Shown here in pieces: positions 7,596 through 27,044 of a stretch of 64,000 nt of DNA (its first letter is position 1; each line of letters starts with the position of its first letter). Location: assembly GCA_021739635.1 (NCBI GenBank), contig JAIPBH010000016.1, positions 1 to 64,000 of the forward strand. Direction: 5' to 3'. Position numbers and translations under genes: made by a program. The DNA is from Flavobacteriaceae bacterium. GTDB taxonomy: Bacteria; Bacteroidota; Bacteroidia; Flavobacteriales; Flavobacteriaceae. The notes beneath the pieces are model-generated. The model was not told where the DNA came from. It worked only from the letters and a program-made list of their open reading frames with translations, and made no database searches.

Positions 7596-7934
7596 ATGAA
7601 CTGTAAAATAAAAAGCAGAATTTGGATTGAACTTGACGGAGAAGAATTTCTGGGCGAAGGAAAAATCCAATTATTAAAAGCCATTGAAGAAACGGGTTCA
7701 TTATCAAAAGCTGCAAAATCTACACATATTTCCTATAAAAAAGCTTGGCATTTAATAGATGCCGTTAATAAAATATCTAAAAAACCCGTAACCATCAACA
7801 GTATTGGCGGCAAAGGTGGTGGCGGCACAGCGTTAACACCTTATGGTAAGTCTTTAATAACTGCCTTTGATGATATGAATAAAAATTGTTGGGAGTTTTT
7901 AGATAAGCAACTAGAAAAAATCAAAAGTTTATAA
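7596..7934 (+). CDS. ModE N-terminal-like winged helix-turn-helix regulator
   Basis: This 112-aa protein is a stand-alone winged HTH domain like the N-terminal part of ModE. The segment from GEGKIQLLKAIEETGSLSKA through KKAWHLIDAVN and the glycine-rich KGGGGTALTPYG is typical. No MOP/TOBE molybdate-binding domain follows, so any molybdate sensing would need a partner. A longer reading frame starts at 7533, but it overlaps moeA by 53 bp and adds residues unlike the family. I therefore use the ATG at 7596, 10 bp after moeA. Its place in the operon suggests local control of Mo genes, which is an inference. Confidence 0.8.
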   Translation: MNCKIKSRIWIELDGEEFLGEGKIQLLKAIEETGSLSKAAKSTHISYKKAWHLIDAVNKISKKPVTINSIGGKGGGGTALTPYGKSLITAFDDMNKNCWEFLDKQLEKIKSL

Positions 7935-7935
7935 T

Positions 7936-8676: not shown

Positions 8677-8678
8677 AT

Positions 8679-9263: not shown

Positions 9264-9480
9264 ATATTTCGGATTGCTCTCAGAAGTCACTAAATGCGAA
9301 GAAGAGACTATTGATTTTTCAAAAACTCTTATTTCTGAGTTATTAGAAGAACTTTGCATAAAATACCCAAACTTAATAAACAAAGACTTTCAAGTGGCGC
9401 AAAACCAGGAGTTAGTGTCATTTGATACAAAACTATTAAGCAACGAATTAGTTTTATTACCACCTTTTTCCGGTGGATAA
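9247..9480 (+). CDS. moaD: Molybdopterin synthase sulfur carrier subunit MoaD
   Basis: A 77-aa ubiquitin-fold protein (MKVTIKYFGLLSEVT at the start) ending in LLPPFSGG. The terminal Gly-Gly is adenylylated by MoeB and converted to a thiocarboxylate, which donates sulfur for the dithiolene. It overlaps mobA by 17 bp, and moeB starts 3 bp later. The large subunit MoaE is two genes downstream. Confidence 0.93.
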   Translation: MKVTIKYFGLLSEVTKCEEETIDFSKTLISELLEELCIKYPNLINKDFQVAQNQELVSFDTKLLSNELVLLPPFSGG

Positions 9481-9483
9481 AAT

Positions 9484-10578: not shown

Positions 10579-11014
10579 TAAAAAAATTAAAAGTGTTTTT
10601 ATACAAGGCGCTATTTCTTCAGAATTTATAGGAGAATCCATTGCCAAACATCAAACTAAAATTAGCATTGGCGCTCATAATATTTTTTTGGGACAGGTTA
10701 GGGCAGATGTTATTGATAATAAAATAGTAGCAGCTATAGAATATACGGCTTATGAAGATATGGCAAATGCTAAATTTCATGAGATTAGAGAAGCAGCATT
10801 TGAAAAATTTGAACTCACGTGTATGCATATTTACCATAGTTTAGGCACTGTTAATGCAGGTGAAATTTGTTTGTTTGTTTTTGTGTCGTCTCCACACAGA
10901 AAAGCAGTTTTTGATGCTTTAGAGTTTATTGTAGAGGAAATTAAGTCTAAAGTTCCTGTTTTTGGGAAAGAAATTTTTGAAGATAATTCACATCAATGGA
11001 AAGTAAATAGTTAA
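10571..11014 (+). CDS. moaE: Molybdopterin synthase catalytic subunit MoaE
   Basis: A 147-aa protein that, with MoaD, converts cyclic pyranopterin monophosphate to molybdopterin. It has typical MoaE features: GAHNIFLGQVR near residue 33, the IEYTAYEDMA segment, YHSLGTVNAGE, SSPHRKAVFDA and the KSKVPVFGKE motif with the catalytic lysine. It overlaps moeB by 8 bp, and the moaCB fusion starts 6 bp after its stop. Confidence 0.94.
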   Translation: MSDKKIKSVFIQGAISSEFIGESIAKHQTKISIGAHNIFLGQVRADVIDNKIVAAIEYTAYEDMANAKFHEIREAAFEKFELTCMHIYHSLGTVNAGEICLFVFVSSPHRKAVFDALEFIVEEIKSKVPVFGKEIFEDNSHQWKVNS

Positions 11015-11020
11015 GTTATT

Positions 11021-11932
11021 ATGGTAGATATCACATATAAAAGTAGCACATTAAGAACCGCTGTTGCACAAGCTATTGTTAAAGTAAGTAAACAGGAAAC
11101 AATCACCGCTATTCAAAACGATACAGTTCCTAAGGGCAATGTATTTGCCATGAGCAAAGCAGCAGGATTACTTGGCGTTAAAAGAACACCGGATATTTTG
11201 CCTGATTGCCATCCGTTACCTATAGAATTTACGAGTGTGGATTATGAAATAAACGGATTAGAAATAACGGTAATTTTCACAGTGAAAACTATTTATAAAA
11301 CGGGTGTTGAGGTAGAAGCTATGCATGGCGCTAGTGTTGTTGCGTTAAATATGTATGACATGTTAAAACCAATTGATAAAGGCATTGAAATACATCATAT
11401 TAAATTGATTAGTAAAAAGGGAGGAAAATCAGATTTTACAGATAAATTTAGAAAAGATTTAACCGCTGCTGTGATTGTCTGTTCAGATACTATTTCGGCA
11501 GGGCAAAAAGAAGATAGAGCAGGAAAAGCAATTATTAAAAAATTGGAAGAATGTTATGTGAAAATAGCCGATTATATTATCATTCCAGATGAAAAAGACA
11601 TCATTCAAGAAAAAGCAAAAACATACCAAGCTCAAGGAGTGGATTTAATTATTTATACAGGTGGAACCGGACTATCAACCAGAGATGTAACACCAGAAGC
11701 TTTATCAACAATTTTAGATAGAAGAATTCCAGGTATAGAAGAAGCCATTCGTAATTATGGACAAGATAGAACACCTTTTTCCATGTTATCAAGAAGTATT
11801 GCCGGAACCTTGAAAAACACTTTAGTTTTAGGATTACCTGGTTCAACCAATGGAGCAAAAGAATCTATGGATGCAATTTTCCCATCGGTTTTACATATTT
11901 TCAGAATATTAAAAGGTGCAAGCCACGATTAA
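11021..11932 (+). CDS. moaCB: Bifunctional MoaC-MoaB/MogA fusion
   Basis: This 303-aa protein joins two steps of Moco synthesis. Residues 1 to about 145 are MoaC (cyclic pyranopterin monophosphate synthase), with [13 protein letters not shown], the [11 protein letters not shown] motif and [17 protein letters not shown]. Residues from about 148 are a MoaB/MogA molybdopterin adenylyltransferase, with [38 protein letters not shown] and [14 protein letters not shown]. Separate genes are the rule in Proteobacteria; the fusion is common in Bacteroidota. It sits directly against moaA (next codon after the stop). Confidence 0.93.
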
Positions 11933-12940
11933 ATGACTAATCAAAATAACATACTGCAAGATTCACACGAGAGAAATCATACCTATTTGCGTATTTCATT
12001 AGTGGAACGCTGTAATTTGCGTTGTTTCTATTGTATGCCTGCAGAAGGTGTACAACTAACTCCTAAAAGTCATATTATGACTTATGAGGAGATTTATGAA
12101 ATTGCAAAAACCTTTGTAAAACATGGAGTTACCAAAATACGATTAACAGGTGGCGAGCCATTAATTAGAAAAGATATTCCTTTTATTTTAGAAAAATTAG
12201 CGTCTTTGCCAGTAGAATTATCAATAACAAGCAACGCAGTTATCATTCATAAATTTATTGATATTCTAAAAAAACACCATGTCAATAATATCAATTTAAG
12301 TCTAGATACTTTAATCTCTAAAAAATTTAAAGAAATTACCCTAAGAGATGAGTTTGATATTGTGTATAAAAATATATTCTTGTTGGTAAAGGAAGGCTTT
12401 AACGTCAAAATAAATGCCGTGTTGATGAAAGGTGTTAATGATAATGAAATTATTGATTTTATTAAGCTTACTAAAAACTTGCCTGTTTCTATTCGCTTTA
12501 TTGAATTTATGCCTTTTGATGGCAATAAATGGGATTTAAGCAACATGGTATCGTATGCAGAAGTTATGGACATTGTAAACACATCTTTTCAAGAAACGGA
12601 TATTGAAAGACTTCAAGATGCACCCAATGATACATCTAAAAACTATAAAATAAAAGGTTTTAAAGGAAGTTTTGCTATAATAAGTTCGGTAACCAATCCG
12701 TTTTGCGATTCTTGTAACAGACTACGTTTAACAGCCAACGGTCAACTTAAAAACTGCTTATTTTCTTCAACAGAATCTGATTTATTAACAAGTTTAAGAA
12801 CAGGAAAATCTATTGAGCCCATCATTAAAAAAGCTGTTTTGGCAAAGTTAAAAGTTCGCGGAGGCATGGATACTTTAGAAAAACTTCAAGAACCAAAACT
12901 TCATAATAATAATCGGAGCATGATTACTATTGGTGGTTAA
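11933..12940 (+). CDS. moaA: GTP 3',8-cyclase MoaA (radical SAM)
   Basis: MoaA performs the first step of Moco synthesis, turning GTP into 3',8-cyclo-7,8-dihydro-GTP. The 335-aa sequence has the radical-SAM cluster CNLRCFYCMP near residue 27, the SAM-binding TGGEPL, and the C-terminal second cluster CDSCNRLRLTANGQLKNC. It lacks the C-terminal GG tail of the canonical enzyme but ends in MITIGG, so a Gly-Gly terminus is in fact present. It is the last gene of the Moco operon. The convergent cytochrome gene ends 2 bp away and there is no obvious terminator between them. Confidence 0.94.
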   Translation: MTNQNNILQDSHERNHTYLRISLVERCNLRCFYCMPAEGVQLTPKSHIMTYEEIYEIAKTFVKHGVTKIRLTGGEPLIRKDIPFILEKLASLPVELSITSNAVIIHKFIDILKKHHVNNINLSLDTLISKKFKEITLRDEFDIVYKNIFLLVKEGFNVKINAVLMKGVNDNEIIDFIKLTKNLPVSIRFIEFMPFDGNKWDLSNMVSYAEVMDIVNTSFQETDIERLQDAPNDTSKNYKIKGFKGSFAIISSVTNPFCDSCNRLRLTANGQLKNCLFSSTESDLLTSLRTGKSIEPIIKKAVLAKLKVRGGMDTLEKLQEPKLHNNNRSMITIGG

Positions 12941-12942
12941 GA

Positions 12943-14829
12943 TTATTTATCAGGCAAAGCACATTTAGCACTTAACTTTTTCAAAATAGGTTGTAATCCA
13001 AACTCCAAAGTTTGTTTCATCACTTTTGAATCATCTTTATGGCATTGCAAACAAGCGCCAACTAAAAGCATTCGTTTTTGTTCTTCTAGATTAAAAGGCC
13101 TGAAATCTGTTCTTGTAGATTGAATAACAGTTTTATCAACGGGTTTTAAGAAAGGAATCCAGGCATCTTCAGGTAGATTGTCATAACTATTTAAAGCATA
13201 TTCAGGAGTAAAAACCCATTCACCTTTTCTATTATTAATTTCATATTTTAAAGAACCTTGACCATAGCCTAATGTGACTGAATTAGAATGACAAGATTTA
13301 CAATCACGTACTTGTTTGGTTGTGGTATGAGGAGAATTTGGTGCATACAGTCTGTGAAATGAAATATCATTACCAGTTTTACCAGAAAAACTTCCTTTAT
13401 CAATAGTTAAAATCATCCCAGGAATAGCTGGTTCAAAAACTCTTTTACCTTTATGTTCTCTAACTCCTATAGCAGGTTTTGAAGATGAAAACTCAGCGAC
13501 ATATTCTTTCCATTGTCCTTTTACAAATTTTTTATCTAATAAATCAAAAGCTTTTGGTTCATTTTCGTCATATTGATTATGGCAACCAATACATCGAGAT
13601 GTCCAAGATGAATGACACGCACTACAACTTACGTTTTCATGAGCTTTGTCTCTTGAACAAACCTTTGATTGGGGTTTTAAATTATGAAGTTTGCCATCGC
13701 CTTTTCCAATTAAAAATGCATGTCCTATAGAGTCAACATAGGTATTTACTAATGGATGACCATCTTTTTTAGCAATTAATATTTCTTTGTTTGAATGTTT
13801 ATAATCTCTGTGCAGAAACACTAAAAGACTTTCAGAATCTAATGAGTCATAGGGAATAGTATTAGGTTTTTCTTTAAAATGACAATCTACACATTGCAAT
13901 GCTACAGCATCTTCTTCATGGGTGTACAATTTGCCGTTTCCCATAACTTCATGCGAAGAATGACAATCTATACACAACAAACCTTTTGTATGATGTACAT
14001 CTTGATCCATGTGTTTATAAACACGTTTGTCTTGTAATACTGTATATAAATCATTATCTGCAATATCTTTCTCATCCAACAAAGTTTCTTGAAGTCCTTC
14101 GTAATTTGTAGAAATTCTACTTGATCTGCTATGACAACCAAAACAATGCGTATTATTAACAAAAACAGTAGTTGAAGGATGAAATTTGGGTAATACTGTT
14201 TTGTTTGAAGCCAAATAATTTTTTAAATCATTTTTAGCTTCCTCAGAATAATTTAAATGACACGCATTACAGCCACCACCTCGACTTTCTTGAGTAATTT
14301 CACCATATTCAGTTTTCTCAGCACCTAAATGACAGTTAGCACACAAATCTCTAATGTGTTTTTCTGAAGCTGAATTTTTTATATCTTTTATATGAAATTG
14401 ATGGTTTGGATGATTTGTTTCTCCAAAAATAAATTTGTCAATAGCAATAATGCCACTATTGGTGGTCATTAATGAACTATTAATTTTATTTAATTCTTCT
14501 ATATGACATTTTCCACAAGTTTCTTTAGCATCTGCTAAATTGCCCGGAATTAAAATCATGCCTTTATGGGCTTCATTTTTATCTAATGAAGAGGTATTTC
14601 CTAAATGACAACTAGCACAACCTATAAGTTCTGGATTATGATAATTTGAAAAACCAGTTGTATTTTGATGACATTGCAAACAAGATTCCTCATTGGCAAC
14701 TTCAATATTAGTATATGGATTGGTATCAAAAGGTGATAGATAAAAACCCTTGTTTATTACATAGAAAAGCGTAGTAATCAGTAAAATAACCACTGTAAAT
14801 ATACCAAGAAAAACGTATTTTTTTTTCAT
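12943..14829 (-). CDS. Membrane-anchored dodecaheme cytochrome c
   Basis: A 628-aa protein with one N-terminal membrane helix (residues about 5-25) and a large periplasmic part with 12 CXXCH heme-binding motifs. In order they are CLQCH, CASCH, CGKCH, CANCH, CNACH, CFGCH, CIDCH, CVDCH, CSACH, CIGCH, CKSCH and CLQCH. Several free His residues could be distal ligands. It is divergent from the psrA-like operon and shares its control region, so it is probably the electron partner or a second terminal reductase for the same process. It resembles octaheme and NapC/NrfH-associated families in style, but I cannot assign a catalytic activity. The last heme motif is 25-30 residues from the C-terminus. 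Confidence 0.85.
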   Translation of the reverse strand: MKKKYVFLGIFTVVILLITTLFYVINKGFYLSPFDTNPYTNIEVANEESCLQCHQNTTGFSNYHNPELIGCASCHLGNTSSLDKNEAHKGMILIPGNLADAKETCGKCHIEELNKINSSLMTTNSGIIAIDKFIFGETNHPNHQFHIKDIKNSASEKHIRDLCANCHLGAEKTEYGEITQESRGGGCNACHLNYSEEAKNDLKNYLASNKTVLPKFHPSTTVFVNNTHCFGCHSRSSRISTNYEGLQETLLDEKDIADNDLYTVLQDKRVYKHMDQDVHHTKGLLCIDCHSSHEVMGNGKLYTHEEDAVALQCVDCHFKEKPNTIPYDSLDSESLLVFLHRDYKHSNKEILIAKKDGHPLVNTYVDSIGHAFLIGKGDGKLHNLKPQSKVCSRDKAHENVSCSACHSSWTSRCIGCHNQYDENEPKAFDLLDKKFVKGQWKEYVAEFSSSKPAIGVREHKGKRVFEPAIPGMILTIDKGSFSGKTGNDISFHRLYAPNSPHTTTKQVRDCKSCHSNSVTLGYGQGSLKYEINNRKGEWVFTPEYALNSYDNLPEDAWIPFLKPVDKTVIQSTRTDFRPFNLEEQKRMLLVGACLQCHKDDSKVMKQTLEFGLQPILKKLSAKCALPDK

Positions 14830-15013: not shown

Positions 15014-17257
15014 ATGACCGCTTCTAGACGAAAATTTATAAAAATTTCAGCCTTAGGGTTAGGAGGTTTAGCAACAACTTCTGGCGCATTTAAAATGTTT
15101 GGTGTGAACCCAATTTTAGATACCGCTGTGAAAGAAAACATTGCTAAAAAATTTGTAAGATCTGCTACCTATTGTGAAGTTTGCTTTTGGAAATGTGCTG
15201 CTTGGGCTTATACCGATGAAGAAGGCGATATTAAAAAAATTATAGGAAATGAAGATGATACCCATTGTAACGGTCGCCTTTGTCCAAGAGGAACAGGTGG
15301 CGTTGGTATGTACAGTGATGAAGACAGATTAAAAACACCATTAATTAGAACAACAATTAATGGACAAGAAACCTATAGAGAAGCAAGTTGGGAAGAAGCG
15401 TTAGACTTGATTGCTTCTAAATTTAAAGGTATAAAAGAAAAATATGGGGCAGAATCATTTGCTTTGCTTAAGCATGGTTCACCAGGAAGTCATTTAGAAC
15501 ATTTATTTAAAGCATATGGGTCAGATACTATTGCTGAACCTGCTTATGCTCAATGTAGAGGTCCAAGAGAAACTGGGTTTGGATTAACCTTTGGATCTTG
15601 GATTGGTTCACCAGAACCAACAGATATTAGAGATACTAAATGTTTAGTGTTAATTGGGTCGCATATTGGAGAAAACATGCACAACTCCCAAGTTCAAGAA
15701 ATGTCTGATGCTATTGACAATGGCGCTACAATAATTACAGTAGATCCAAGACTTTCAACAGCAGCAAGCAAATCAAAACATTGGTTAGCCATTAAGCCAG
15801 CTACAGACATAGCCTTATTACTTTCTTGGATGCATGTTTTAATAGAAGAAGGCTTATACAATAAAGATTATGTTGAAAAATATACTTCTGGGTTTGATCA
15901 GTTAAAAGCTCATGTTAAACAATTTACACCAGAATGGGCGTATGGTATTACAACTATAAAACCTGAAGATATAAGAAAAACAGCACGTGTTATGGCTGCT
16001 GCTGCACCTTCTGTGATTGTACATCCTGGAAGGCATGTAGTTTGGTATGGTGATGATTCTCAAAGAGAAAGAGCTATTGCTATTTTAAATGGTTTGTTAG
16101 GTTCTTGGGGAAATAGAGGAGGTTTTTATTTTAAAGAAAGTTTAAAACTGCCAAAATATCCGCATCCAGAATATCCAGAACCAAAATGGGGTTGGAAAGA
16201 CATTGGAGAACAATATCCGTTTGCCGAAATGGGAATTACTTCAGAATTAATAAAAGCTACACTTCCTAGTACAGACAATAAATATCCAATAAAGGCTTGG
16301 ATGATTGCCGGAACTAATTTGATTAATACCTTACCTCAAAGAGAAAAAACCATTGAGGCTATTAACGCTGTAGAATTCTTGGTTGTTATAGATACCATGC
16401 CAATGGAAATTACTGGTTATGCCGATGTTGTACTGCCAGAATGTACCTATTTAGAACGTTATGATGATATCCGTTCTGCAACAAACAGAACACCTTCAAT
16501 AGCTGTACGAATTCCAGCAGTAAAACCTAAATATAACACTAAACCAGCTTGGTGGATAAGTAAAGAAATTGGTAATCGTTTAGGCTTAGGTGACTATTTT
16601 AATTACAATGATTATGAGGAAGTTATAGAATGGCAACTTAATAAGCTAGGAACTTCTTTAGATGAAATGAAAAAAATTGGGGTTAAAAATTTTGATAGAG
16701 TATCAGGACCATTATTTTTAGAAGAAGGACAAGATTATGAATTTGCAACACCTAGCGGTAAAATAGAGTTTTATTCACATCAACTTACCGAAAAAGGATT
16801 TGATCCTATGCCTGTTTATACAGCACATCCAGAACCACCTCAAGGGTTTTATAGATTAAATTATGGCAGATCACCTATGCATACCTTTAGTAGAACTATT
16901 AATAATCCTAATTTAAGTGATTTAAAAAGTGAAAACACTTTGTGGGTTAATCCAAAAGTTGCTAGAGTATTAGGATTGAAAAAGAATCAAGAAGTTTGGT
17001 TAAAAAATCAAGACGGAATTCTTTCAACATTTTCAATAAAAGTTAGAGTTACTGAAAGAATACGCTGGGATTCAGTCTATATGTATCATGGTTTTGGGCA
17101 TAATAATGAAAAATTATCTAGAGCTTTTGGAAAAGGGATAAGTGATACTGAATTGATATCACAAACAGTAGTAGATCCACTTATGGGTGGCACAGGACTT
17201 AGAGGAAATTTTGTGTCCATTTTAACAGAAGATCCACATAAAAATTCAGAGATATGA
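15014..17257 (+). CDS. Periplasmic molybdopterin oxidoreductase, PsrA/PhsA-like catalytic subunit
   Basis: A 747-aa member of the DMSO-reductase family, close in length to polysulfide and thiosulfate reductase large subunits. The N-terminus is a Tat signal (SRRKFIK then a hydrophobic stretch), so the folded holoenzyme is exported. A [4Fe-4S] site is formed by CEVCFWKC and the cysteine of GRLCPRG. The cysteine in AYAQCRGPRE is the likely Mo ligand. The C-terminal molybdopterin-dinucleotide domain begins near residue 600 (NYGRSPMHTFSRT). It overlaps the ferredoxin gene by 4 bp. The substrate is probably an inorganic sulfur species given the YeeE and rhodanese neighbours. Arsenate or selenate cannot be excluded from sequence alone. 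Confidence 0.88.
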   Translation: MTASRRKFIKISALGLGGLATTSGAFKMFGVNPILDTAVKENIAKKFVRSATYCEVCFWKCAAWAYTDEEGDIKKIIGNEDDTHCNGRLCPRGTGGVGMYSDEDRLKTPLIRTTINGQETYREASWEEALDLIASKFKGIKEKYGAESFALLKHGSPGSHLEHLFKAYGSDTIAEPAYAQCRGPRETGFGLTFGSWIGSPEPTDIRDTKCLVLIGSHIGENMHNSQVQEMSDAIDNGATIITVDPRLSTAASKSKHWLAIKPATDIALLLSWMHVLIEEGLYNKDYVEKYTSGFDQLKAHVKQFTPEWAYGITTIKPEDIRKTARVMAAAAPSVIVHPGRHVVWYGDDSQRERAIAILNGLLGSWGNRGGFYFKESLKLPKYPHPEYPEPKWGWKDIGEQYPFAEMGITSELIKATLPSTDNKYPIKAWMIAGTNLINTLPQREKTIEAINAVEFLVVIDTMPMEITGYADVVLPECTYLERYDDIRSATNRTPSIAVRIPAVKPKYNTKPAWWISKEIGNRLGLGDYFNYNDYEEVIEWQLNKLGTSLDEMKKIGVKNFDRVSGPLFLEEGQDYEFATPSGKIEFYSHQLTEKGFDPMPVYTAHPEPPQGFYRLNYGRSPMHTFSRTINNPNLSDLKSENTLWVNPKVARVLGLKKNQEVWLKNQDGILSTFSIKVRVTERIRWDSVYMYHGFGHNNEKLSRAFGKGISDTELISQTVVDPLMGGTGLRGNFVSILTEDPHKNSEI

Positions 17258-17787
17258 GATATGCAATGGTAATAGACACCTTAAAATGTGTTGGATGTAG
17301 TGATTGTGTTGTGGCTTGTCAAACAGAAAACAACGTACCACATGGATATTGTAGAGATTGGATTACTGAATCTGTTAGTGGTTCTTATCCAAAAGTAGAA
17401 TTAGAATTAAAATCTGAAAGATGTAATCATTGTGATAATGCACCTTGTGTAAGATGTTGCCCAACAGGCGCTAGTCATATTGTTGATGGTGGTATAGTAT
17501 TAGTTACTGCAAATGAATGTATAGGTTGTGGTGCTTGTATAGAATCATGCCCATACGATGCTCGTTACCAACATCCTGATGGTTATGTAGATAAGTGTAC
17601 CTTCTGTCACCATAGATTAGAAAAAGGTCAGCTTCCTGCTTGTGTATCTGTTTGTCCTACTAAATGCATGTATTTTGGAGACTTAGATAATCCAAATAGC
17701 GAAGTTTCACAATTATTAAAAAATAGAAATTACAAAACTTTAGCGCCTGAAGCAGGAACTAATCCACACGTGTTTTACCTAATTTAA
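17254..17787 (+). CDS. Four-cluster ferredoxin subunit, PsrB-like
   Basis: A 177-aa electron-transfer subunit that moves electrons between the membrane subunit and the molybdoenzyme. Four cysteine clusters are visible: CVGCSDCVVAC, CNHCDNAPCVRCC, CIGCGACIESC and CTFCHH with PACVSVC. It has no signal of its own, which fits export by hitch-hiking with the Tat-dependent large subunit. The start overlaps the large-subunit stop by 4 bp and the NrfD gene begins 12 bp downstream. Confidence 0.93.
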   Translation: MRYAMVIDTLKCVGCSDCVVACQTENNVPHGYCRDWITESVSGSYPKVELELKSERCNHCDNAPCVRCCPTGASHIVDGGIVLVTANECIGCGACIESCPYDARYQHPDGYVDKCTFCHHRLEKGQLPACVSVCPTKCMYFGDLDNPNSEVSQLLKNRNYKTLAPEAGTNPHVFYLI

Positions 17788-17799: not shown

Positions 17800-18759
17800 A
17801 TGCAAGAAGAATTATTTACAAGTGGAAGACATATTCCAAATATAGACCCATCATTACAAATTTGGCATTGGCCAATAGCACTCTATTTGTTTTTAGGTGG
17901 ACTTGCTGCAGGCATATTATTTTTTGCAGCCTTATTTTATGTTTTAGGAAAGGAAAAAGAATATCCGGCAGCAGTAAAAATAGCTTCTATTGTGCCTCCA
18001 ATAGCTTTATCTTTAGGTTTATTGGCTTTGGTGTATGATTTAACACATCCTTTATACACATGGCAATTATATACAACTTTTAGAATTGAATCGCCAATGT
18101 CTTGGGGTGCATGGGTTTTAATGATAGTTACTCCTCTATCATTTCTTTGGACTTTTAGTTATTACAGAGAATCGTATTCTAAAATAGAGTCTAAATTAAA
18201 CTTGTTTAAACGTTTTAAATTCTTAAAAACCTTTGAGCAATTTATTAAAACTAATAGAATCTATATAGCTTATGCGTTAATTCCATTATCAATAATTTTA
18301 GGTGTTTATACCGGAATTTTGTTATCAGCCTTTAATGCCAGACCTTTATGGAACAATGCCATTCTTGGCCCATTGTTTTTAACTTCCGGGTTATCAACTG
18401 GCGCAGCAGCTATTATTTTAATTTCAAAAAGTGTTGAAGAGAGACATATGTTTGGCAAAATAGATTTAGGACTAATCATTATAGAATTAGCCTTAATTGT
18501 CCATATGATTATGGGATATTATGCCGGTTCTCAAGTTCAACTTGAAGCAATGGACTTATTGGTTGGAGGTGAATTTACCTTAATGTTCTTTGGGTTTGTA
18601 GTATTACTAGGTCTTTTAGTTCCAGCTATATTAGAATCTATTGAGCTTTTAGGATATAAAGTACCAGTGATTGTACCTGCACTTTTGGTTATTCTTGGAG
18701 GACTTATTTTCCGATTTGTTATGATTGAAGCAGGTCAATTAACACGATACCTTTATTAA
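17800..18759 (+). CDS. NrfD/PsrC-family membrane quinone subunit
   Basis: A 319-aa inner-membrane protein with eight hydrophobic helices, as in PsrC. It anchors the complex and exchanges electrons with the quinone pool without heme. Characteristic features are the N-terminal WHWPIALYLFLGGLAAG, YDLTHPLYTWQLYTTFRIESPMSWGAW and SAFNARPLWNNAILGPLFL. The presence of a NrfD-type rather than a cytochrome-b-type anchor favours a Psr-like over a Phs-like architecture. The 101 bp after it (18760-18860) hold only a 14-codon reading frame that I do not call a gene. Confidence 0.93.
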   Translation: MQEELFTSGRHIPNIDPSLQIWHWPIALYLFLGGLAAGILFFAALFYVLGKEKEYPAAVKIASIVPPIALSLGLLALVYDLTHPLYTWQLYTTFRIESPMSWGAWVLMIVTPLSFLWTFSYYRESYSKIESKLNLFKRFKFLKTFEQFIKTNRIYIAYALIPLSIILGVYTGILLSAFNARPLWNNAILGPLFLTSGLSTGAAAIILISKSVEERHMFGKIDLGLIIIELALIVHMIMGYYAGSQVQLEAMDLLVGGEFTLMFFGFVVLLGLLVPAILESIELLGYKVPVIVPALLVILGGLIFRFVMIEAGQLTRYLY

Positions 18760-18860
18760 AATAATTAGTTATGAAATGCATATTAGTAAGTTTTGTAAAA
18801 CAATATAAGGTTTAAAAAGGCATTTCTTTTGATCATTAAAAAACAAATAATTTTAAACAA

Positions 18861-19391
18861 ATGAAAACAGATAGTAAAACAAATAAACACGTGTATTGGA
18901 ATCCATATTATGGTGGTTTTTTGTTAGGGATTTTAATCATATTCACCTTTTATCTAACAGGTAGAGGTTTAGGTGCAAGTGGCGCCATGAAAAGCAGTGT
19001 TGTCACCATAGTTGATAAAGTAGCACCCACACATGCCGAAAACAATGAATATTATAGCAAGTTTATCAGTAAAGATAATTCGCCAATGAACACATGGTTG
19101 GTTTTTGAAACTTTAGGAGTTTTAATTGGGGCTTTTATTTCAGGTGGTTTAGCTGGCAGAATTAAATGGAGAGTACAACATTCACCAAAAATAACTCGTA
19201 AACGCAGACTCGTTTTTGCTCTTGCTGGAGGAGTATTATTTGGGTTAGGAGCTCAAATTGCTCGTGGATGTACAAGTGGAGCTGCTCTTAGTGGTATGGC
19301 CGTATTATCGTCTGGAGGCTTTTTAACTATGTTAGCCATTTTTGGTTCGGCATATGCTGCTGCTTACTTTTTTAGAAAAAATTGGATTTAA
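18861..19391 (+). CDS. YeeE/YedE family permease, N-terminal half-type protein
   Basis: A 176-aa membrane protein of the DUF395 (YeeE/YedE) family. Hydrophobic helices begin near residue 15 and again after residue 75. The conserved cysteine motif ARGCTSGAALSGMA is at about residues 134-147. In the characterised member TsuA (YeeE), such cysteines relay thiosulfate across the inner membrane. Here the fold is split over this gene and the next, 19 bp apart, so the two are expected to form a heteromer. An unusual periplasmic-looking loop (residues 40-75, including PTHAENNEYYSKF) separates the first helices. Confidence 0.87.
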   Translation: MKTDSKTNKHVYWNPYYGGFLLGILIIFTFYLTGRGLGASGAMKSSVVTIVDKVAPTHAENNEYYSKFISKDNSPMNTWLVFETLGVLIGAFISGGLAGRIKWRVQHSPKITRKRRLVFALAGGVLFGLGAQIARGCTSGAALSGMAVLSSGGFLTMLAIFGSAYAAAYFFRKNWI

Positions 19392-19410
19392 TTAAATAAA
19401 AAATATAATT

Positions 19411-20001
19411 ATGGGACCATTAATTCCTAACGGTATGATTCCTATTGAATGGGATAGTATAATAGCCATTTTTATTGGTATTGTTTTTGGCTTTGTTTTA
19501 GAATCCTCAGGATTTTCATCTTCAAGAAAGCTTGCAGGTGTATTTTATGGCTATGATTTTGCAGTATTAAAAGTATTTTTTACAGCGGCAGCAGTATCTG
19601 TAATAGGACTTTATTATATGGACTATTTAGGCTATCTAGATATCAATCAATTATACGTGCATCCTACCTATTTATGGGGAGCAATTATAGGTGGTATTAT
19701 TATGGGAATAGGTTTTGTAGCTGGTGGTTTTTGTCCAGGTACAAGTTTATGTGCTGTAGCTATAGGAAAATTAGATGCTTGGGTTTATGTAGCAGGAATC
19801 ATGATTGGAGTATTTTTATTTTCAGAGCTATATCCTTTTTTTGAACCTATTTATAATGGTTATTTTTTGGGAAATGTAACCTTAATTGATTCATTTGGTT
19901 GGAATCCCTATTGGGTGATATTTATTTTTTCAATGATAGCAATTGTTGCATTTGCAATATCCGATATAGTTAGAAAAAAAATTAAAAGTGTGTTTTACTA
20001 A
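19411..20001 (+). CDS. YeeE/YedE family permease, partner half
   Basis: A 196-aa membrane protein with about six hydrophobic segments and the second DUF395 signature AGGFCPGTSLCAVAIGKLDAW, which contains two cysteines. It complements the preceding gene in the way paired half-size YeeE/YedE genes do in other bacteria. The operon places it between the NrfD subunit and two rhodanese-fold proteins, so its cargo is probably thiosulfate or another sulfane-sulfur compound. The direction of transport and the substrate are inferences. Confidence 0.87.
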   Translation: MGPLIPNGMIPIEWDSIIAIFIGIVFGFVLESSGFSSSRKLAGVFYGYDFAVLKVFFTAAAVSVIGLYYMDYLGYLDINQLYVHPTYLWGAIIGGIIMGIGFVAGGFCPGTSLCAVAIGKLDAWVYVAGIMIGVFLFSELYPFFEPIYNGYFLGNVTLIDSFGWNPYWVIFIFSMIAIVAFAISDIVRKKIKSVFY

Positions 20002-20016
20002 TAAAACGATAGTACA

Positions 20017-20679
20017 ATGGATAAAAAGAAGATTGCCAAAGTAGCATCTTTCAGGTACAAAATTTTAGCAATAATTTTTTTAGTGCTTGCAGGAGGCTTG
20101 GTTTTACTACCTAAATATCAAAAGCAAGAAGGTATCAAATCTGAAGCATTATTAAGTCATGCAAATAGTGCTGAAAGATATATATCTACAGATCAAATTG
20201 CCAATAAAATTATTAACCAAGACCCTTCTTTTATATTAATTGATGTAAGAGATGAAGAAAGTTATAATAATTATTCGCTCCCAAATGCTATTAACATTCC
20301 TCTTAAAAAAATATTTGATGAAGAATCTATAGCTTATTTAAATCAAAATGAGTTTGATGTCATCTTTTTTTCTAATGATAATTTTTATGCAGATCAAGCA
20401 TGGATGTTGTGTGATAGATTAGGTTTTAAAAACTTACGAGTTTTAAATGGTGGTTTAAATAAATGGTTTACTACTATAATTAACCCTACAAAACCAAATG
20501 ACGATATGCCAGATCAAGCATTTGAATTATATACAACACGTAAAGCCTCTAGCATGTATTTTGGAGTAGCGTACCCAGACCAGGTAATAACTGATGATTC
20601 TAGTTTAAAAACAGAAACTCCTAAACAAGTCATTACAGTTCAAAAGAAAAAGAAAAAAGCAGCTGAAGGTGGTTGTTAA
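20017..20679 (+). CDS. Membrane-anchored rhodanese-fold protein with C-terminal Gly-Gly-Cys tail (copy 1)
   Basis: A 220-aa protein with one N-terminal membrane helix (residues about 15-32) and a periplasmic rhodanese domain (about 58-152; FILIDVRDEESY, LPNAINIPL, GGLNKWF). The loop that normally holds the catalytic cysteine reads FFSNDNFYADQAW, so Ser119 or Asn120 is in place of Cys. A linker then leads to a lysine-rich tail VITVQKKKKKAAEGGC, with Cys220 as the last residue; the only other cysteine is C132. I infer that sulfur is carried on the terminal Cys, as on the GGCGG arm of SoxY. It lies 15 bp after the YeeE pair. A different possibility is a metal-binding or thioether-linked tail. 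Confidence 0.85.
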   Translation: MDKKKIAKVASFRYKILAIIFLVLAGGLVLLPKYQKQEGIKSEALLSHANSAERYISTDQIANKIINQDPSFILIDVRDEESYNNYSLPNAINIPLKKIFDEESIAYLNQNEFDVIFFSNDNFYADQAWMLCDRLGFKNLRVLNGGLNKWFTTIINPTKPNDDMPDQAFELYTTRKASSMYFGVAYPDQVITDDSSLKTETPKQVITVQKKKKKAAEGGC

Positions 20680-21321
20680 TTTTAAAACTTTATAAGAATT
20701 TCTATTATGAAAGAGTTAGAAAAAGTAAAACGTATATCAATAGTTTCAACACTTTTTATATTAGCCATATTAATAGGTGTGTTAACTTTTGAACGTCCTA
20801 AAAATATGTATGCAATTAACACCAAAGTCACATTAGAAAAATTAACGGCTAATAATTATTTAATTTCATTAAATGAGATTAATAATCCAAACATCATATT
20901 AATAGATGTAAGAAGCCAATTTGAATATGATAAAGGATATTTAAAAAATGCTATTAATATTTCAACACCAGATATTTTAAGCCAAGAAAATCAAGAACTA
21001 TTTAAGGAATTTAAAGACAATAAAAAAACAGTTGTTATATATGGAAAAAACCCTCAAGAAGCTAATATCCCTTTTCTTTTATTGTATCAATTAGGATATG
21101 ATAATCTTAAATTGTTGGCGGTTGAGAATAATTATTTGCAAAATAAATTAATTACAAGCCAAAGTGAAATTGAAAAACCAATTGCAGATATTAAAGCATT
21201 CATAGATGAATCAACTAAAAATTTGAAAACCACTAATACCGAAACAGACAAAAAAGAACCTATTAAAAAGGTGATTACAGTTCAAAAGAAAAAGAAAAAA
21301 GCTGCTGAAGGAGGTTGTTAA
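20632..21321 (+). repeat. 48-nt near-identical repeat encoding the GGC tails
   Basis: Bases 20632-20679 and 21274-21321 form the 3' ends of the two rhodanese-fold genes including the stop codons. They differ at two positions only, both synonymous third positions (GCA/GCT and GGT/GGA). The coding sequence upstream of each copy has diverged strongly. Confidence 0.9.
20707..21321 (+). CDS. Membrane-anchored rhodanese-fold protein with C-terminal Gly-Gly-Cys tail (copy 2)
   Basis: A 204-aa paralog of the preceding protein with the same plan: membrane helix at about residues 9-27, rhodanese domain about 48-145 (IILIDVRSQFEYDKGYL, NAINIS) and the tail VITVQKKKKKAAEGGC. The active loop reads VVIYGKNPQEANIP, with glycine where the catalytic cysteine should be. 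Cys204, the final residue, is the only cysteine in the whole protein, so any thiol chemistry must occur at the tail. The two globular domains are only distantly similar while the tails are identical over the last 16 residues. It starts 27 bp after copy 1 and ends 47 bp before the Crp regulator. Confidence 0.85.
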   Translation: MKELEKVKRISIVSTLFILAILIGVLTFERPKNMYAINTKVTLEKLTANNYLISLNEINNPNIILIDVRSQFEYDKGYLKNAINISTPDILSQENQELFKEFKDNKKTVVIYGKNPQEANIPFLLLYQLGYDNLKLLAVENNYLQNKLITSQSEIEKPIADIKAFIDESTKNLKTTNTETDKKEPIKKVITVQKKKKKAAEGGC

Positions 21322-21368
21322 TCTATTACAAATTCTATATTCTTTTAATAAAAATAATTATATAAAAA

Positions 21369-22028
21369 TTGAATAATAAAGATATCATATTAAAAGAAAA
21401 ATTTATTAACCACTTTTCAAAAGTCTTTGAAGAAAAATTAATTCAAGAAATCATAAAAGTTGGTCATTTTAATACAATGAAATCCGGTCAACTTTTAATT
21501 GATATTGGAGACGATTTAACACATATTCCATTAATTTTTGAAGGTACAGCAAAGGTTATAAGGCATATAAAGATTGATGGAGAATTGGTTTTGTATTATT
21601 TGAAACCTGGTGATACTTGTGCCGTTTCTTTTATTAACTGTATTGAAAGCAAAAAAAGTGTTTTTGAGGTTATTATTGAAACAGATATGTCTGCAGTTTT
21701 TATTCCGGTTGATATAATTGATGAATGGTTAGTAACATATAAATCTTGGAGACGTTACATTATTGACAGTTACCATTTTAGATTAATGGAAATGCTAGAG
21801 TCTATAGATGGTTTAGCATTCACCAACTTGCATGAACGGTTATTTAAATATTTAACAGATAAGGTTAAAAGAAATAACAAAAAAATATTACAAGTTACAC
21901 ACCAAGAACTTGCAAATGACATGAATACTTCAAGAGTAGTAATTTCTAGAATTATTAAGCAATTACAAGACGAAGGAAAAATTATTTCTACCAGAAATAA
22001 AATTAAAGTCTTAGATATTAATACTTAG
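21369..22028 (+). CDS. Crp/Fnr-family transcriptional regulator
   Basis: A 219-aa regulator with an N-terminal cyclic-nucleotide-type beta-barrel (about residues 30-125) and a C-terminal winged HTH (about 165-215; THQELANDMNTSRVVISRIIKQL). The start is TTG at 21369, as no ATG fits the domain. Two cysteines close together in the effector domain (C84 and C91, in DTCAVSFINC) have no role in ordinary cAMP binding and could sense redox or sulfur species; this is inference. It is the last gene of the psr-like operon and is one of two candidates for the activator that binds the ATGAY-N4-RTCAT operators. A strong terminator follows. Confidence 0.88.
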   Translation: MNNKDIILKEKFINHFSKVFEEKLIQEIIKVGHFNTMKSGQLLIDIGDDLTHIPLIFEGTAKVIRHIKIDGELVLYYLKPGDTCAVSFINCIESKKSVFEVIIETDMSAVFIPVDIIDEWLVTYKSWRRYIIDSYHFRLMEMLESIDGLAFTNLHERLFKYLTDKVKRNNKKILQVTHQELANDMNTSRVVISRIIKQLQDEGKIISTRNKIKVLDINT

Positions 22029-22077
22029 TTTTAAATTTCTTATTAATCAATTTATTATAAAATATTAATAACGCTAA

Positions 22078-22113
22078 ACAAAAAAGACTGCCAAATTTGG
22101 CAGTCTTTTTTGT
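22078..22113. terminator. Bidirectional intrinsic terminator
   Basis: A perfect 36-nt palindrome. The half-stem ACAAAAAAGACTGCCAAA is followed directly by its complement, and there is a T run on either strand. It lies between the convergent Crp gene and fadL-like gene. Confidence 0.93.
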
Positions 22114-22147
22114 TTATAGACTTTAACTTCTTAATTAGAATTAAATT

Positions 22148-23494
22148 TTATTTATTAAAAGTATAACTTATACCAAGCTGTACCATAGAAGTTGTCATTT
22201 TATAAGAAACAGATGAACCAGGAATAGCTCCTAAAGGATTACTAGAAGAAATCATAAATGGTGAAAGTATTTGCCCTTCAGTTGATCCATTACTATCTCC
22301 ATAATGGTAAACAGCATCTAGCTTCCAACTATTGTTAACTTCATAACTAAAACCAAATTGATAAGCATTTTTAATTACTGCTGTGGCTGGAATGTTAAAA
22401 AAAGTTATTTCTTCAGGAATTGGGTTAGAACTATAAGTATAGCCAATACGTAATGGTAATTTATTAATTCCTTTATATTGTAAACCTGTAGAAAGAACAC
22501 TAATATTTTTCCATCCAAAACCAGCTACTGAAGCAGTATTAGTCCAGCCTGAATTCATAAACCCTGCAGTTTCTTCGTAAAATACTCTTCTAAAATCTAA
22601 AGCAAAATCAACATTGCCTTTTGAGTATCCCAATCCAAAAGACAAAATTCCAGGATAGTCCATTTGAAATTCGTTTTTAGAGCTACTGTTATCTAAATAA
22701 GTGTCTTCAAATTTAAATTTAAGGAATGTTTGAGGCATTTTATATGCAGCACCAAATTTTAAACCATTTCCTGTATCATAAAACATTCCAAATTGAGCTC
22801 CAAAACCAACAGCTGTTGCTTTATTAGTTGAAGGATATCCAGCTGTAAGAGAAGGGTTTGCTGTTGGATTTGGTGATAATTCTAATGACGAATAATTGAT
22901 TGTTGGTTGTATCCCAACAGAGAATTTATCAGATAATTCGTAGGCCCAAGTAGCACCAACTTGTAAAAGCATATAATCTGATTCTATATGTCCAAATCCT
23001 CCTGCATTTTGTGGATAGTTTATTGGATTTGAATTTACCATAGGATTAAAAGCCGGGTTAAAAGGATTGTTGCCTTCTTCAGGAAAAGTAACTCCAAATC
23101 CACTAATTCCAAAAGCAGATAATCCAAAAGTATGTTTACTTCCTTCTTTACCCCAAACCATGGCTAAAGCTGGCATAGGTGAAACACCTCTATCGTCTTT
23201 TGTTGTACCACTTACACTTGGTGCTCCTGGACCCAACATTCCTGCTGGTAATGAAGATGATAGCTCAGGTGAAGAATAAAATAAACCAATATCAAGTTTT
23301 AATATCTTATCATCAAAAACTGATATGGCAGCAGGATTCCATTGAAGTGCTCCAGAAATATCTAATGGTTGTGCTGTAGAAGCGCCTCCCATTGACATAT
23401 TAACAGCACCTACTCCTTGCATAATGTGTCCTGCTTGTGAAAACATCATAGCAGAAAAACTTAAAAAAAAGACTGAGAAAAGTAACGATTTCAT
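22148..23494 (-). CDS. OmpP1/FadL/TodX-family outer-membrane transport protein
   Basis: A 448-aa beta-barrel porin with a 19-residue signal peptide (ending FSQA) and the FadL-style N-terminal hatch (GHIMQGVGAVNMSMGGAST). The C-terminus ends in the aromatic strand LGISYTFNK typical of outer-membrane barrels. The family takes up hydrophobic compounds such as fatty acids or aromatics. Its promoter has the same operator and spacing as moeA and psrA-like, so it belongs to the same regulon, which is unexpected for a plain fatty-acid channel. The cargo in this context is unknown. Confidence 0.87.
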   Translation of the reverse strand: MKSLLFSVFFLSFSAMMFSQAGHIMQGVGAVNMSMGGASTAQPLDISGALQWNPAAISVFDDKILKLDIGLFYSSPELSSSLPAGMLGPGAPSVSGTTKDDRGVSPMPALAMVWGKEGSKHTFGLSAFGISGFGVTFPEEGNNPFNPAFNPMVNSNPINYPQNAGGFGHIESDYMLLQVGATWAYELSDKFSVGIQPTINYSSLELSPNPTANPSLTAGYPSTNKATAVGFGAQFGMFYDTGNGLKFGAAYKMPQTFLKFKFEDTYLDNSSSKNEFQMDYPGILSFGLGYSKGNVDFALDFRRVFYEETAGFMNSGWTNTASVAGFGWKNISVLSTGLQYKGINKLPLRIGYTYSSNPIPEEITFFNIPATAVIKNAYQFGFSYEVNNSWKLDAVYHYGDSNGSTEGQILSPFMISSSNPLGAIPGSSVSYKMTTSMVQLGISYTFNK

Positions 23495-24744: not shown

Positions 24745-25986
24745 ATGTTTCAGAAAGATCAGGATGTTTTTAATTTACTTTTTGAAGCCGTTTCTGAAGG
24801 TGTTATAGTTGTTGACGCATCTCAAAATATTGTTGCAACTAACATTTCAGCAGAACAAATGTTTGGTTATGAAAATAAAGAACTAATAGGTAAGCATCTC
24901 AATGTTTTAATACCAAAAAATTATCATTTAGGTCATACAGGGCATTTTAATGGTTTTATAAAACAAAACGTTAGCCGTAAAATGGGTAATGGTAGAGACC
25001 TCAATGGAATTAGAAAAGATTCTACTATTTTTCCTTTAGAAATTGGACTTAACCCTTTCAATGCTTATGGTGAAACTTATGTGATGGCTTTAGTTATTAA
25101 TGTTTCAATTAGAAAAAAGCATGAGCAAGAAATCATTGAGTTAAATCAGCAACTAGAAGATAAAGTGTTGAGGCGTACTCAAGAACTTAACAATGCCATA
25201 GATGAACTCAAAGCAGTTAATAGTAGATTAGAAGCAGAAAATATAAAACGAATAGAAGCAGAGAGAAAAACAAAAATAGCTTTAAAAAGAGAAATTGAAC
25301 TTAATGAGCTTAAAACAAAATTTTTATCTTTAGTTTCACATGAGTTTAAAACACCTTTAAGTGGTATTTTAACATCAACTATGCTTTTGGGTAAGTATAA
25401 GTTAACAGAGCAGCAAGACAATAGAGATAAGCATTTAAAAACTATTACAGATAGAGTTCATTACTTAAACAACATACTCAATGACTTTTTATCAATTGAT
25501 AAGCTTGAAACAGGTAAAATAAAATATAATTTTAGTGAATTTAAACTTAGTAAAGTTATTAATGAAGTAGTTTATAATTGTAATTTGTTATTAAAAGAAG
25601 GGCAAAGAATTAAATACCCAGATAATATAGACGATATTTCACTGTATCAAGATGAAAAAATTATTGAATTAACATTGTCCAATTTAGTCCATAACTCATT
25701 AAAATATTCACCTGAAAACACTAATATTGTTATAGATGTAAGGCATGATTATGAGAAAACCAGCTTTATAATTAAAGACAAAGGAATTGGAATTCCAGAA
25801 AAAGATCAAAAAAACATATTTAATCGTTATTTTAGAGCTGAAAATGCCTTACTAACTCAAGGTACTGGCATTGGATTAAATATTGTAAAAACACATTTAG
25901 AAAATTTAGGCGGAAAAATTAAATTTGTAAGTGAAGAGAATAAAGGAACAACATTTACTGTTACCATACCAAATAAAGCTTTATGA
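24745..25986 (+). CDS. FixL-like PAS sensor histidine kinase
   Basis: A 413-aa soluble kinase with no membrane helix. A PAS domain covers about residues 5-125, a coiled coil about 126-190, then HisKA with phospho-acceptor H199 (SLVSHEFKTP) and HATPase with N-box N313/N317, DKGIGI and GTGIGL. The PAS segment IPKNYHLGHTGHF...GNGRDLNGIRKDS aligns with the FixL heme-PAS. H64 falls on the proximal heme histidine and R84 on the oxygen-sensing arginine of the FG loop. H64 is also frequent in non-heme PAS domains, so heme binding is a hypothesis. It overlaps the receiver-Crp gene by 4 bp, which makes that protein its likely partner. Confidence 0.88.
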   Translation: MFQKDQDVFNLLFEAVSEGVIVVDASQNIVATNISAEQMFGYENKELIGKHLNVLIPKNYHLGHTGHFNGFIKQNVSRKMGNGRDLNGIRKDSTIFPLEIGLNPFNAYGETYVMALVINVSIRKKHEQEIIELNQQLEDKVLRRTQELNNAIDELKAVNSRLEAENIKRIEAERKTKIALKREIELNELKTKFLSLVSHEFKTPLSGILTSTMLLGKYKLTEQQDNRDKHLKTITDRVHYLNNILNDFLSIDKLETGKIKYNFSEFKLSKVINEVVYNCNLLLKEGQRIKYPDNIDDISLYQDEKIIELTLSNLVHNSLKYSPENTNIVIDVRHDYEKTSFIIKDKGIGIPEKDQKNIFNRYFRAENALLTQGTGIGLNIVKTHLENLGGKIKFVSEENKGTTFTVTIPNKAL

Positions 25987-27044
25987 TTAAAAAAGTATTA
26001 CTAATAGAAGACGATGTAGTTTTAAGAGAAAATACTGCAGAACTTCTAGAATTATCAGGTTATCAAGTTGAAACAGCTTCAAATGGAAGAGCAGGAGTTG
26101 AAGTTGCAAAAAAATATCTTCCTAGTATTATAATTTGTGATATTATGATGCCAGAACTTGACGGTTATGGCGTTTTAGAAAATTTATCAAAAAATGATAT
26201 CACAAAATATATCCCTTTTATTTTTCTATCAGCAAAAACAGAAAGACAAGATGTTAGAAAAGGAATGGATCTTGGTGCTGATGATTATATTACAAAACCA
26301 TTTAATGAAGATGAGCTAATAAGTGCTATTGAAAGCAGAATAGCTAAAACGGCTATTCTTCATGACGAAAGAGAAGCCAAAACATTTAATGCTAACGATA
26401 GTGAAGTTTATGATGACATTAGAACCCTAAACGATTTAAAAAATTTCTTTGATGATAATGGCAAAACATTTCTTTTTTCAAAAGGGGACATTATATATGA
26501 AGAAGGAAATAACTCAAACTATATTTTTTTAATAAGAAAAGGCGTTGTAAAAAACTTTAAGTTTGACCATGATGGTAAAGAACTTACCACAAATTTATAT
26601 CAAGAAGATGAGTTGTTTGGATACACATCTTTTACTCAAAACGTTCCTTATCAAGAGTCAGCTACTGCTATAAAAGACACAGAACTAGTTGGTGTTTCAA
26701 AGCAAGAGCTAAAAGATGTTTTAGATAATAATCATAAAATAACACTTGAACTTATTCAATTATTAACAGACAACCTTTCTGGTGCCAGAGACCAATTGTT
26801 AGATATGGCCTATAGTTCTGTAAATAAAAAAACGGCTACTACTATATTAAAATTTGCCGAAAAATTAAACAACAAATCTGGTGAGCCAATCAGGATTTCA
26901 AGAAATGACTTAGCAAGTGTTGCAGGCATAGCTACAGAAACGTTAATTAGAACCTTATCAAGCTTTAAAAAAGATGGACTTATTGAAATTGAAGCTAGAA
27001 ATATTAAAATTTTAGACTTGCAAAAGCTTCAACAAGTTAACTAA
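25983..27044 (+). CDS. Receiver-Crp fusion response regulator
   Basis: A 353-aa protein joining a CheY-type receiver (residues 1-120; phospho-acceptor D53 in ICDIMMPELDGYG, K105 in ITKPF) to a Crp-like effector barrel (about 145-265) and a winged HTH (about 300-345; SRNDLASVAGIATETLIRTLSSFKKDGLI). It is like FixJ and FixK merged into one polypeptide, so a phosphorelay could act directly on a Crp-type promoter. It overlaps the PAS kinase gene by 4 bp. The HTH segment ETLIRTL is of the Crp/Fnr kind and is a plausible reader of the ATGAY-N4-RTCAT operators, one of which lies just downstream in front of uspA. Confidence 0.9.
   Translation: MIKKVLLIEDDVVLRENTAELLELSGYQVETASNGRAGVEVAKKYLPSIIICDIMMPELDGYGVLENLSKNDITKYIPFIFLSAKTERQDVRKGMDLGADDYITKPFNEDELISAIESRIAKTAILHDEREAKTFNANDSEVYDDIRTLNDLKNFFDDNGKTFLFSKGDIIYEEGNNSNYIFLIRKGVVKNFKFDHDGKELTTNLYQEDELFGYTSFTQNVPYQESATAIKDTELVGVSKQELKDVLDNNHKITLELIQLLTDNLSGARDQLLDMAYSSVNKKTATTILKFAEKLNNKSGEPIRISRNDLASVAGIATETLIRTLSSFKKDGLIEIEARNIKILDLQKLQQVN

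Follow-up and report, generated by a model that had tools for sequence, protein, structure and literature searches.

The terminal arm of SoxY ends in GGCGG, and Sud is a rhodanese-type protein that carries sulfur on its single loop cysteine; the molybdoenzyme of the Srr selenite reductase operon is Psr-like. The swinging arm of SoxYZ has been described (PMC11237559), and Sud is known to present polysulfide to PsrABC (PMC2628731). A Psr operon of Desulfurivibrio is reported to include an exported three-domain rhodanese (PMC12142623); the combination of Psr with a periplasmic rhodanese is therefore already known, and the new part in the locus described here is a cysteine-tipped arm. On the importer side, the YedE1E2 half-pair is reported to import zero-valent sulfur and to need two conserved cysteines (PMC10812762), transfer from SoxY to SoxT1, with the SoxY cysteine delivering along the pore cysteines, has been called conceivable (PMC11582611), and the YeeE of Spirochaeta is described as relaying thiosulfate via three cysteines and handing it over to YeeD in the cytoplasm (PMC11073785).

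The window analyzed here, a stretch of 64,000 nucleotides from a Flavobacteriaceae bacterium, contains an operon with the gene order PhsA-like, PsrB-like, NrfD, YeeE1, YeeE2, Rho1, Rho2, and Crp; upstream of it, an ExtM-like cytochrome with 12 haems is encoded divergently (Table 1). The twin proteins Rho1 and Rho2, which occupy 20017-21321, resemble SoxY in their proposed role, that of a periplasmic carrier with sulfur intermediates on the cysteine of a terminal glycine-rich arm. Unlike SoxY, they have a rhodanese fold, as identified by Foldseek, a membrane anchor, and a lysine-rich linker, and neither a SoxZ partner nor any other Sox family is among the Pfam and NCBIfam matches listed for the operon proteins. 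Like Sud in the PsrABC system of Wolinella (PMC2628731), they would be periplasmic partners of a Psr-like molybdoenzyme that present sulfur to it; unlike Sud, they have no loop cysteine, carry a cysteine at the tip of an arm, and are also tied to YeeE. The permease halves form the same PF04143 half-pair with conserved cysteines as YedE1E2, PmpAB, and SoxT, and the parts of those accounts at hand mention neither an armed rhodanese nor a YeeE-rhodanese fusion (PMC10812762, PMC11582611). The Srr operon of Bacillus selenitireducens also combines rhodanese-domain proteins, SrrE and SrrF, with a molybdoenzyme but differs, as compared by description only, in that these proteins are of 38 and 45 kDa and that no YeeE pair is mentioned in the part of the description at hand (PMC12481199). 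A likeness to the octaheme tetrathionate reductase family (TIGR04315) lies in the cytochromes found beside YeeE2-rhodanese fusions. No account of an armed rhodanese-YeeE module beside an octaheme tetrathionate reductase, and no description of a cysteine-tipped rhodanese arm, was found in the open-access literature, which was represented mainly by titles and abstracts, with subscription papers mostly outside it. Because swinging-arm sulfur carriers are known and the armed rhodanese looks like an independent design, it would be a new version of a known type.

Table 1. Features of the operon and its divergent neighbor, in coordinates of the window
Feature	Coordinates	Strand	Remarks
Multiheme cytochrome, 12 CXXCH, ExtM-like	12943..14829	-	Divergent
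PhsA/PsrA-like molybdopterin catalytic subunit	15014..17257	+	PF00384; best NCBIfam match PhsA
PsrB-like iron-sulfur subunit	17254..17787	+	Pfam/NCBIfam matches
NrfD/PsrC-like membrane subunit	17800..18759	+	PF03916, 170.7 bits
YeeE1, half-size YeeE/YedE permease	18861..19391	+	C-terminal half of PF04143
YeeE2, half-size YeeE/YedE permease	19411..20001	+	N-terminal half of PF04143
Rho1	20017..20679	+	220 aa; rhodanese fold with predicted inner-membrane anchor; Ser119-Asn120 in place of the loop Cys; arm tipped by Cys
Rho1 arm VITVQKKKKKAAEGGC	20629..20676	+	Cys220 is the final codon before the stop
Rho2	20707..21321	+	204 aa; rhodanese fold with predicted inner-membrane anchor; Gly113 in place of the loop Cys; arm tipped by Cys
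Rho2 arm VITVQKKKKKAAEGGC	21271..21318	+	Cys204 is the final codon before the stop
Crp/Fnr-type regulator	21369..22028	+	PF13545

Rho1 and Rho2 match the rhodanese model PF00581 with 53.9 and 54.8 bits, respectively (cut-off, 22.2), and the best Foldseek matches of their models in the PDB are rhodaneses, which places both proteins in the rhodanese fold by sequence and by structure. At the active loop, where catalytic rhodaneses and sulfurtransferases, Sud included, have their cysteine, Rho1 presents a serine and Rho2 a glycine. Their C-terminal sequences (VITVQKKKKKAAEGGC, followed by the stop codon) are identical and finish with KKKKKAAEGGC. The terminal cysteine is one of two in Rho1 (132 and 220) and, as the first-pass annotation had stated, the only one in Rho2; its description of the twins as sharing a membrane helix, a rhodanese domain without an active-loop cysteine, and a tail ending in cysteine proved exact in the translations, the PF00581 matches, and the alignments. 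Each protein has a single hydrophobic helix near the N terminus, preceded by a Lys/Arg-rich start. The AlphaFold2 models (mean pLDDT of 86.3 and 87.5) both predict an N-terminal helix followed by the rhodanese domain, another helix, and a tail without secondary structure; block means for the arm are 51 to 68 in Rho1 and 55 to 74 in Rho2, corresponding to low to moderate confidence. The rhodanese domain looks periplasmic, since the twins carry features of exported proteins. By hydropathy only, a periplasmic domain is indicated by the Lys/Arg residues that precede the helix and, in the fused versions, by a basic loop linking YeeE2 to the following helix, and lipobox-like N termini occur in the armed Rho2 and Rho3 of loci L059 and L060. 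Rhodanese domains are present in eight other proteins of the source genome (3.36 Mb). All seven that were inspected, including a MoeB-like one, have the loop cysteine (one of two domains in L004) and none has a terminal cysteine; the eighth, on contig C15, is outside this count.

The two permease genes qualify as a half-size YeeE/YedE pair, with YeeE1 spanning positions 176 to 308 and YeeE2 positions 8 to 149 of the 310 of PF04143, and each contains a conserved cysteine: the single cysteine of YeeE1 (137) is kept in 22/22 aligned sequences and Cys108 of YeeE2 is invariant in 8/8. In other genomes, it is YeeE2 that forms a fusion with the armed rhodanese. The catalytic subunit reaches 478.4 bits with the PhsA thiosulfate reductase equivalog NF012032 (cut-off, 694) and the multiheme cytochrome 237.6 bits with the ExtM selenite/tellurite equivalog NF040943 (cut-off, 800); with both scores under their cut-offs, assignment of the operon to a Phs or an Ext system by model score was rejected. 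A promoter and terminator scan of 18700-22200 gave nothing above shuffled sequences.

Molybdenum cofactor genes at 6407-12940 adjoin the reductase operon and are kept beside the reductase in several relatives. They include genes that we take to be those of MoeA, MobA, MoaE, and MoaA, a MoaC-MoaB-like fusion, and a ThiF protein with a rhodanese domain. Inside this cluster, at 7936-8673, lies a gene of the TauE/SafE sulfite-exporter family (118 bits), which recurs there in L041, L042, and L044 and gives a hint that sulfite may be a product of the reductase. Near the operon, a FadL/OmpP1-type outer membrane protein is encoded at 22148-23494, with relatives nearby in L039, L041, and L044, and might admit the substrate. 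A gene at 25983-27041 encodes a response regulator with a fused Crp-type cNMP and HTH domain and has a PAS histidine kinase as its neighbor.

These surroundings bear on the possibility that the twins carry selenium or tellurium in a selenite or tellurite respiratory operon related to SrrABCDEF of Bacillus selenitireducens, with the arm cysteine binding selenium as a selenotrisulfide or selenopersulfide. The neighboring cytochrome is indeed closest to ExtM of a selenite/tellurite operon, and YeeE1 and YeeE2 weakly match YedE selenium models; however, the ExtM and YedE matches all lie far under the cut-offs. Rhodanese-domain proteins are reported from the Srr operon too, as SrrE and SrrF (PMC12481199), but the YeeE-armed rhodanese module also accompanies cytochromes of the tetrathionate reductase family, and the TauE/SafE-type gene in the molybdenum cofactor cluster belongs to a sulfite-exporter type. 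Selenium or tellurium transport by the arm is thus quite unlikely.

A search with the Rho1 protein of 299 genomes of the family returned 26 matches, including the window's own, with the pair present in 24 of the 25 others; L062, an unrelated rhodanese, was left out of the family table, which comprises 24 loci. A PhsA-like gene is found at 23 of these (L051 runs off its contig) and a relative of the 12-CXXCH cytochrome adjoins the reductase gene at 20. The YeeE pair is found at 21, being cut in L051 and missing from the Psr operons of L054 (7073-7759) and L058 (670-1374), where the armed twins come directly after NrfD. At 11 loci, the stretch covered includes a Crp match downstream of Rho2. Every Rho1 of the family loci has cysteine as its last or second-last residue (GGC in 21, EGC in 1, and GGCG in 2), and Rho2 has a cysteine-tipped end at 22 of 24. 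Retention of fold and neighborhood with loss of the terminal cysteine, which the first-pass annotation had named as speaking against its reading, therefore does occur, at two loci for Rho2 and at none for Rho1: in L042 the tail codons persist in other frames, and in L045 the arm is truly lost and a third rhodanese ends in EGGC. The closest named Rho1 matches are from Flavobacteriaceae, namely two MAGs (86 and 80%), Yeosuana (76%), and Mangrovimonas (71%). At the 80 named loci, which are the best 80 of 328 confirmed matches and lean to close relatives, all complete Rho1 (79/79) and Rho2 (77/77) proteins end in GGC; Rho1 is cut in L111, Rho2 is cut in L088, and no Rho2 is present in L076 and L111. 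Since at least five contigs (L066, L068, L072, L095, and L103), judged by their lengths, are common to the named and family sets, the two sets overlap.

Within alignments of 55 sequences each, K212, G218, G219, and C220 are among the 21 invariant columns of Rho1, and four of the only seven invariant columns of Rho2 fall in the tail. The ends observed include GGC, GGCG, GGCA, GGCS, GGCT, EGC, and MGC, so that the cysteine is kept while the rest changes. By comparison, among the non-rhodanese open frames of L001-L242, spurious ones included, 38/2952 end in C, 5/2952 in GC, and 1/2952 in GGC, and among frames of at least 300 aa none of 775 ends in GC. The shared GGC ends of the twins are not due to chance. 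The tails are also charged, with a mean net charge over the last 20 residues of +5.3 in 230 distinct armed tails versus +0.2 in 111 unarmed rhodaneses. They are basic (net +2 or more) in 220/230 and not basic (net charge of 0 or below) in 6/230, and the lysine-rich stretch is therefore not universal among armed tails. Nearly all members have a SoxY-like glycine-rich end with cysteine, (G)GC, and the exact GGCGG was not seen; the most SoxY-like are eight unique frames ending in GGCG, with others ending in GGCA or GGCS. That different proteins of one operon end in short tails of almost the same sequence would also be expected if GGC were a chemically inactive sorting signal recognized by an envelope processing enzyme, but the letters of the tail vary widely except for the cysteine and the preceding glycine, the tail is absent from the seven other rhodanese proteins inspected in the source genome, and known envelope sorting tails look different, which together leave this explanation scarcely probable.

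The arm and the loop cysteine mostly exclude each other in these sequences. Counted as unique frames, which are not dereplicated, 240 have the arm and no loop cysteine, 110 the loop cysteine and no arm, 9 both, and 4 neither. With domains dereplicated at 75%, the counts are 169 armed without the cysteine, 93 unarmed with it, 5 armed with it, and 24 unarmed without it, the last including one of the two domains of double proteins. The nine frames with both features comprise five third rhodaneses and four armed proteins of a single domain with a cysteine at the loop position (L133, L141, L168, and L169). The third rhodanese of L059 and of L060 is a double one with the canonical cysteine, and its GGCG tail is almost that of the twins; in the third rhodanese of L045, which is the one ending in EGGC, the second loop cysteine is a serine, and two more third proteins (L047 and L077) have PGCD ends. 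The third proteins of L045, L059, and L060 group with unarmed double rhodaneses, outside the armed clade, by topology among the branches listed of a domain tree. At L069 (1827-3894) and other Lutibacter loci, Rho2 is followed by two further double rhodaneses with canonical loop cysteines, the second with a lipobox-like start, which are possible sulfur-transfer partners.

The tails of twins from one genome resemble each other (identity of 0.794, versus 0.482 for shuffled pairs, with a standard deviation of 0.016 and a maximum of 0.541 in 2000 shuffles of 68 distinct pairs, a procedure that ignores relatedness). Because 335 of the 810 codons for identical residues differ, this likeness is not only a matter of recent copying; gene conversion could contribute to it. 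Such covariation would also suit a structural tether, in which the terminal cysteine carries no sulfur but holds a membrane complex together through a stable disulfide that joins the twins to each other, copies to copies, or the protein to a reductase or YeeE subunit. The terminal cysteine could equally be structural. Of 200 armed single-domain frames, 108 have no other cysteine, and disulfide bonds are reported to link envelope proteins in the gliding and type 9 secretion of Bacteroidota (PMC12635249). However, a tail predicted to lack structure, with Gly-Gly before the cysteine, favors mobility, the single-arm and fused versions have no twin, and the conserved cysteines of YeeE1 (22/22) and YeeE2 (Cys108) sit where halves of the PmpAB type are thought to relay sulfur (PMC11582611) rather than at free docking sites. 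A purely structural function of the arm therefore appears unlikely.

The first-pass annotation had suggested looking for GGC tails beside YeeE and Psr genes. Independently of the tail, a YeeE2 alignment searched against 395 genomes of the phylum Bacteroidota retrieved 71 places in 65 genomes, 67 strong (E of 4.9e-42 or better) and 4 weak (E of 8.8e-26 or worse), and the neighborhoods of all 71 were inspected. An adjacent or fused rhodanese with cysteine as the last or second-last residue is present at 66 of the 67 strong places; at the remaining one, G581, a frameshift interrupts it, with a tail end of KKKKREGC still encoded in a different frame. The four weak places (L227, L265, L266, and L267) yielded no armed rhodanese. 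YeeE2 had no match in the plasmid collection, and spread by plasmids was rejected.

The contexts of the strong places are an octaheme cytochrome unit at 35, a Psr-type operon at 27, and neither at 5. The octaheme unit has the order octaheme cytochrome, b-type cytochrome (33/35), YeeE1, YeeE2, and armed rhodanese, with YeeE2 and the rhodanese in one frame in 34/35 and split by a stop in G303. Two octaheme proteins that were scanned pass the TIGR04315 model of the tetrathionate reductase family (578 and 560 bits versus 375), and their b-type partners match PF01292; the other 33 were recognized by BLAST (41-71% identity) and eight CXXCH motifs. A PhsA-like gene is seen at 21 of the 27 Psr-type places, and at the other six (G304, G309, G350, G377, G462, and G416) the view comprises 1.5-kb flanks; in G477, which is Psr type, YeeE2 and the rhodanese are also in one frame. 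At the five places with neither reductase in view, the rhodanese ends in RMGC or RFQC. L191, L230, L231, and L232 have a YeeE pair and a rhodanese ending in RMGC with no Psr or octaheme gene in view, and in L191 and L230 a rhodanese with the loop cysteine lies nearby.

The pair of periplasmic sulfur carriers proposed in the first-pass annotation, working with YeeE and Psr, retains the support of the conserved terminal cysteine, the exported look, and the genetic tie to YeeE pairs and reductases; neither YeeE nor Psr is obligatory, as arms persist with a reductase and no YeeE, and with YeeE and an octaheme cytochrome and no close PhsA. G181, one genome (99% complete), keeps Psr and both arms with no PF04143 match anywhere, and YeeE as the sole partner is rejected because of it; in G223, PF04143 matches occur at two other places only. 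Psr as the sole partner was likewise rejected. In 40 chosen genomes, 33 of them with an octaheme unit and with G312 and G357, which have both unit kinds, left out, a PhsA-like search gave no match above 30% identity at E of 1e-20 in the 33 octaheme-unit genomes and distant matches in three. The pair occurs at the 24 family loci, but the twin design is one version only, and a twin-only reading was rejected, since single armed proteins, YeeE2 fusions, and armed third proteins exist.

Comparison across the family and phylum shows loss of the loop cysteine, a near-universal terminal (G)GC, a basic tail predicted to be without structure, apparent export features, and linkage to a YeeE half-pair and a sulfur-compound reductase. 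On this comparison, Rho1 and Rho2 are probably periplasmic, membrane-anchored swinging-arm carriers that transport sulfur by the terminal cysteine between the reductase and the YeeE pair. The rhodanese fold, having given up its own catalytic cysteine, would act as a docking body, and the cysteine at the tip of the arm would be the working thiol, acquiring a sulfane-sulfur adduct in the form of a persulfide, or of an S-thiosulfonate, from thiosulfate or polysulfide. The lysine-rich stretch may draw the anionic substrate and steer the arm, which would swing between two sites. One is the active site on the periplasmic side of the reductase, which is Psr/Phs-like here and an octaheme cytochrome in other genomes; the other is the opening of the YeeE1-YeeE2 pore, where conserved cysteines could pass the sulfur inward. 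The arm would thereby present sulfur to the reductase as Sud does and share it with the importer; candidate substrates are thiosulfate, polysulfide, tetrathionate, or a selenium analogue.

Crp/Fnr and histidine kinase genes nearby, and a basic tail that might bind and block the pore, would be compatible with the arm cysteine as a redox switch or substrate sensor that responds to oxygen or sulfane sulfur by gating the reductase or the YeeE pore. This is very unlikely, as up to three armed proteins per operon and the tight tie to the transporter halves fit a stoichiometric carrier better, and no signaling domain is among the Pfam matches of the armed proteins scanned. For the carrier, a broader proposal, whose chances we consider evenly balanced, is a phylum-wide sulfur-relay module in which dead rhodaneses with cysteine-tipped arms would provide a common sulfur dock for half-size YeeE importers and for two respiratory reductases that are unrelated to each other, a molybdenum Psr-like enzyme and an octaheme haem c enzyme, with the arm itself transferable onto third rhodaneses.

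For the delivery of sulfane sulfur from the periplasm to YeeE-type importers, transfer from SoxY to SoxT1 has only been called conceivable (PMC11582611). The armed rhodanese is a putative cysteine-tipped carrier that gene fusions link to the importer and shared operons link to two unrelated reductases, and sulfur hand-over is therefore testable with one cysteine change. The conservation of the tail in many Bacteroidota beside two unrelated sulfur-respiration enzymes and a sulfur transporter suggests an undescribed hand-over of sulfur between proteins. If this is true, a common fold can give up its reaction center and have it rebuilt on a flexible arm, and the Bacteroidota would gain a respiratory sulfur trait that is recognizable from sequence.
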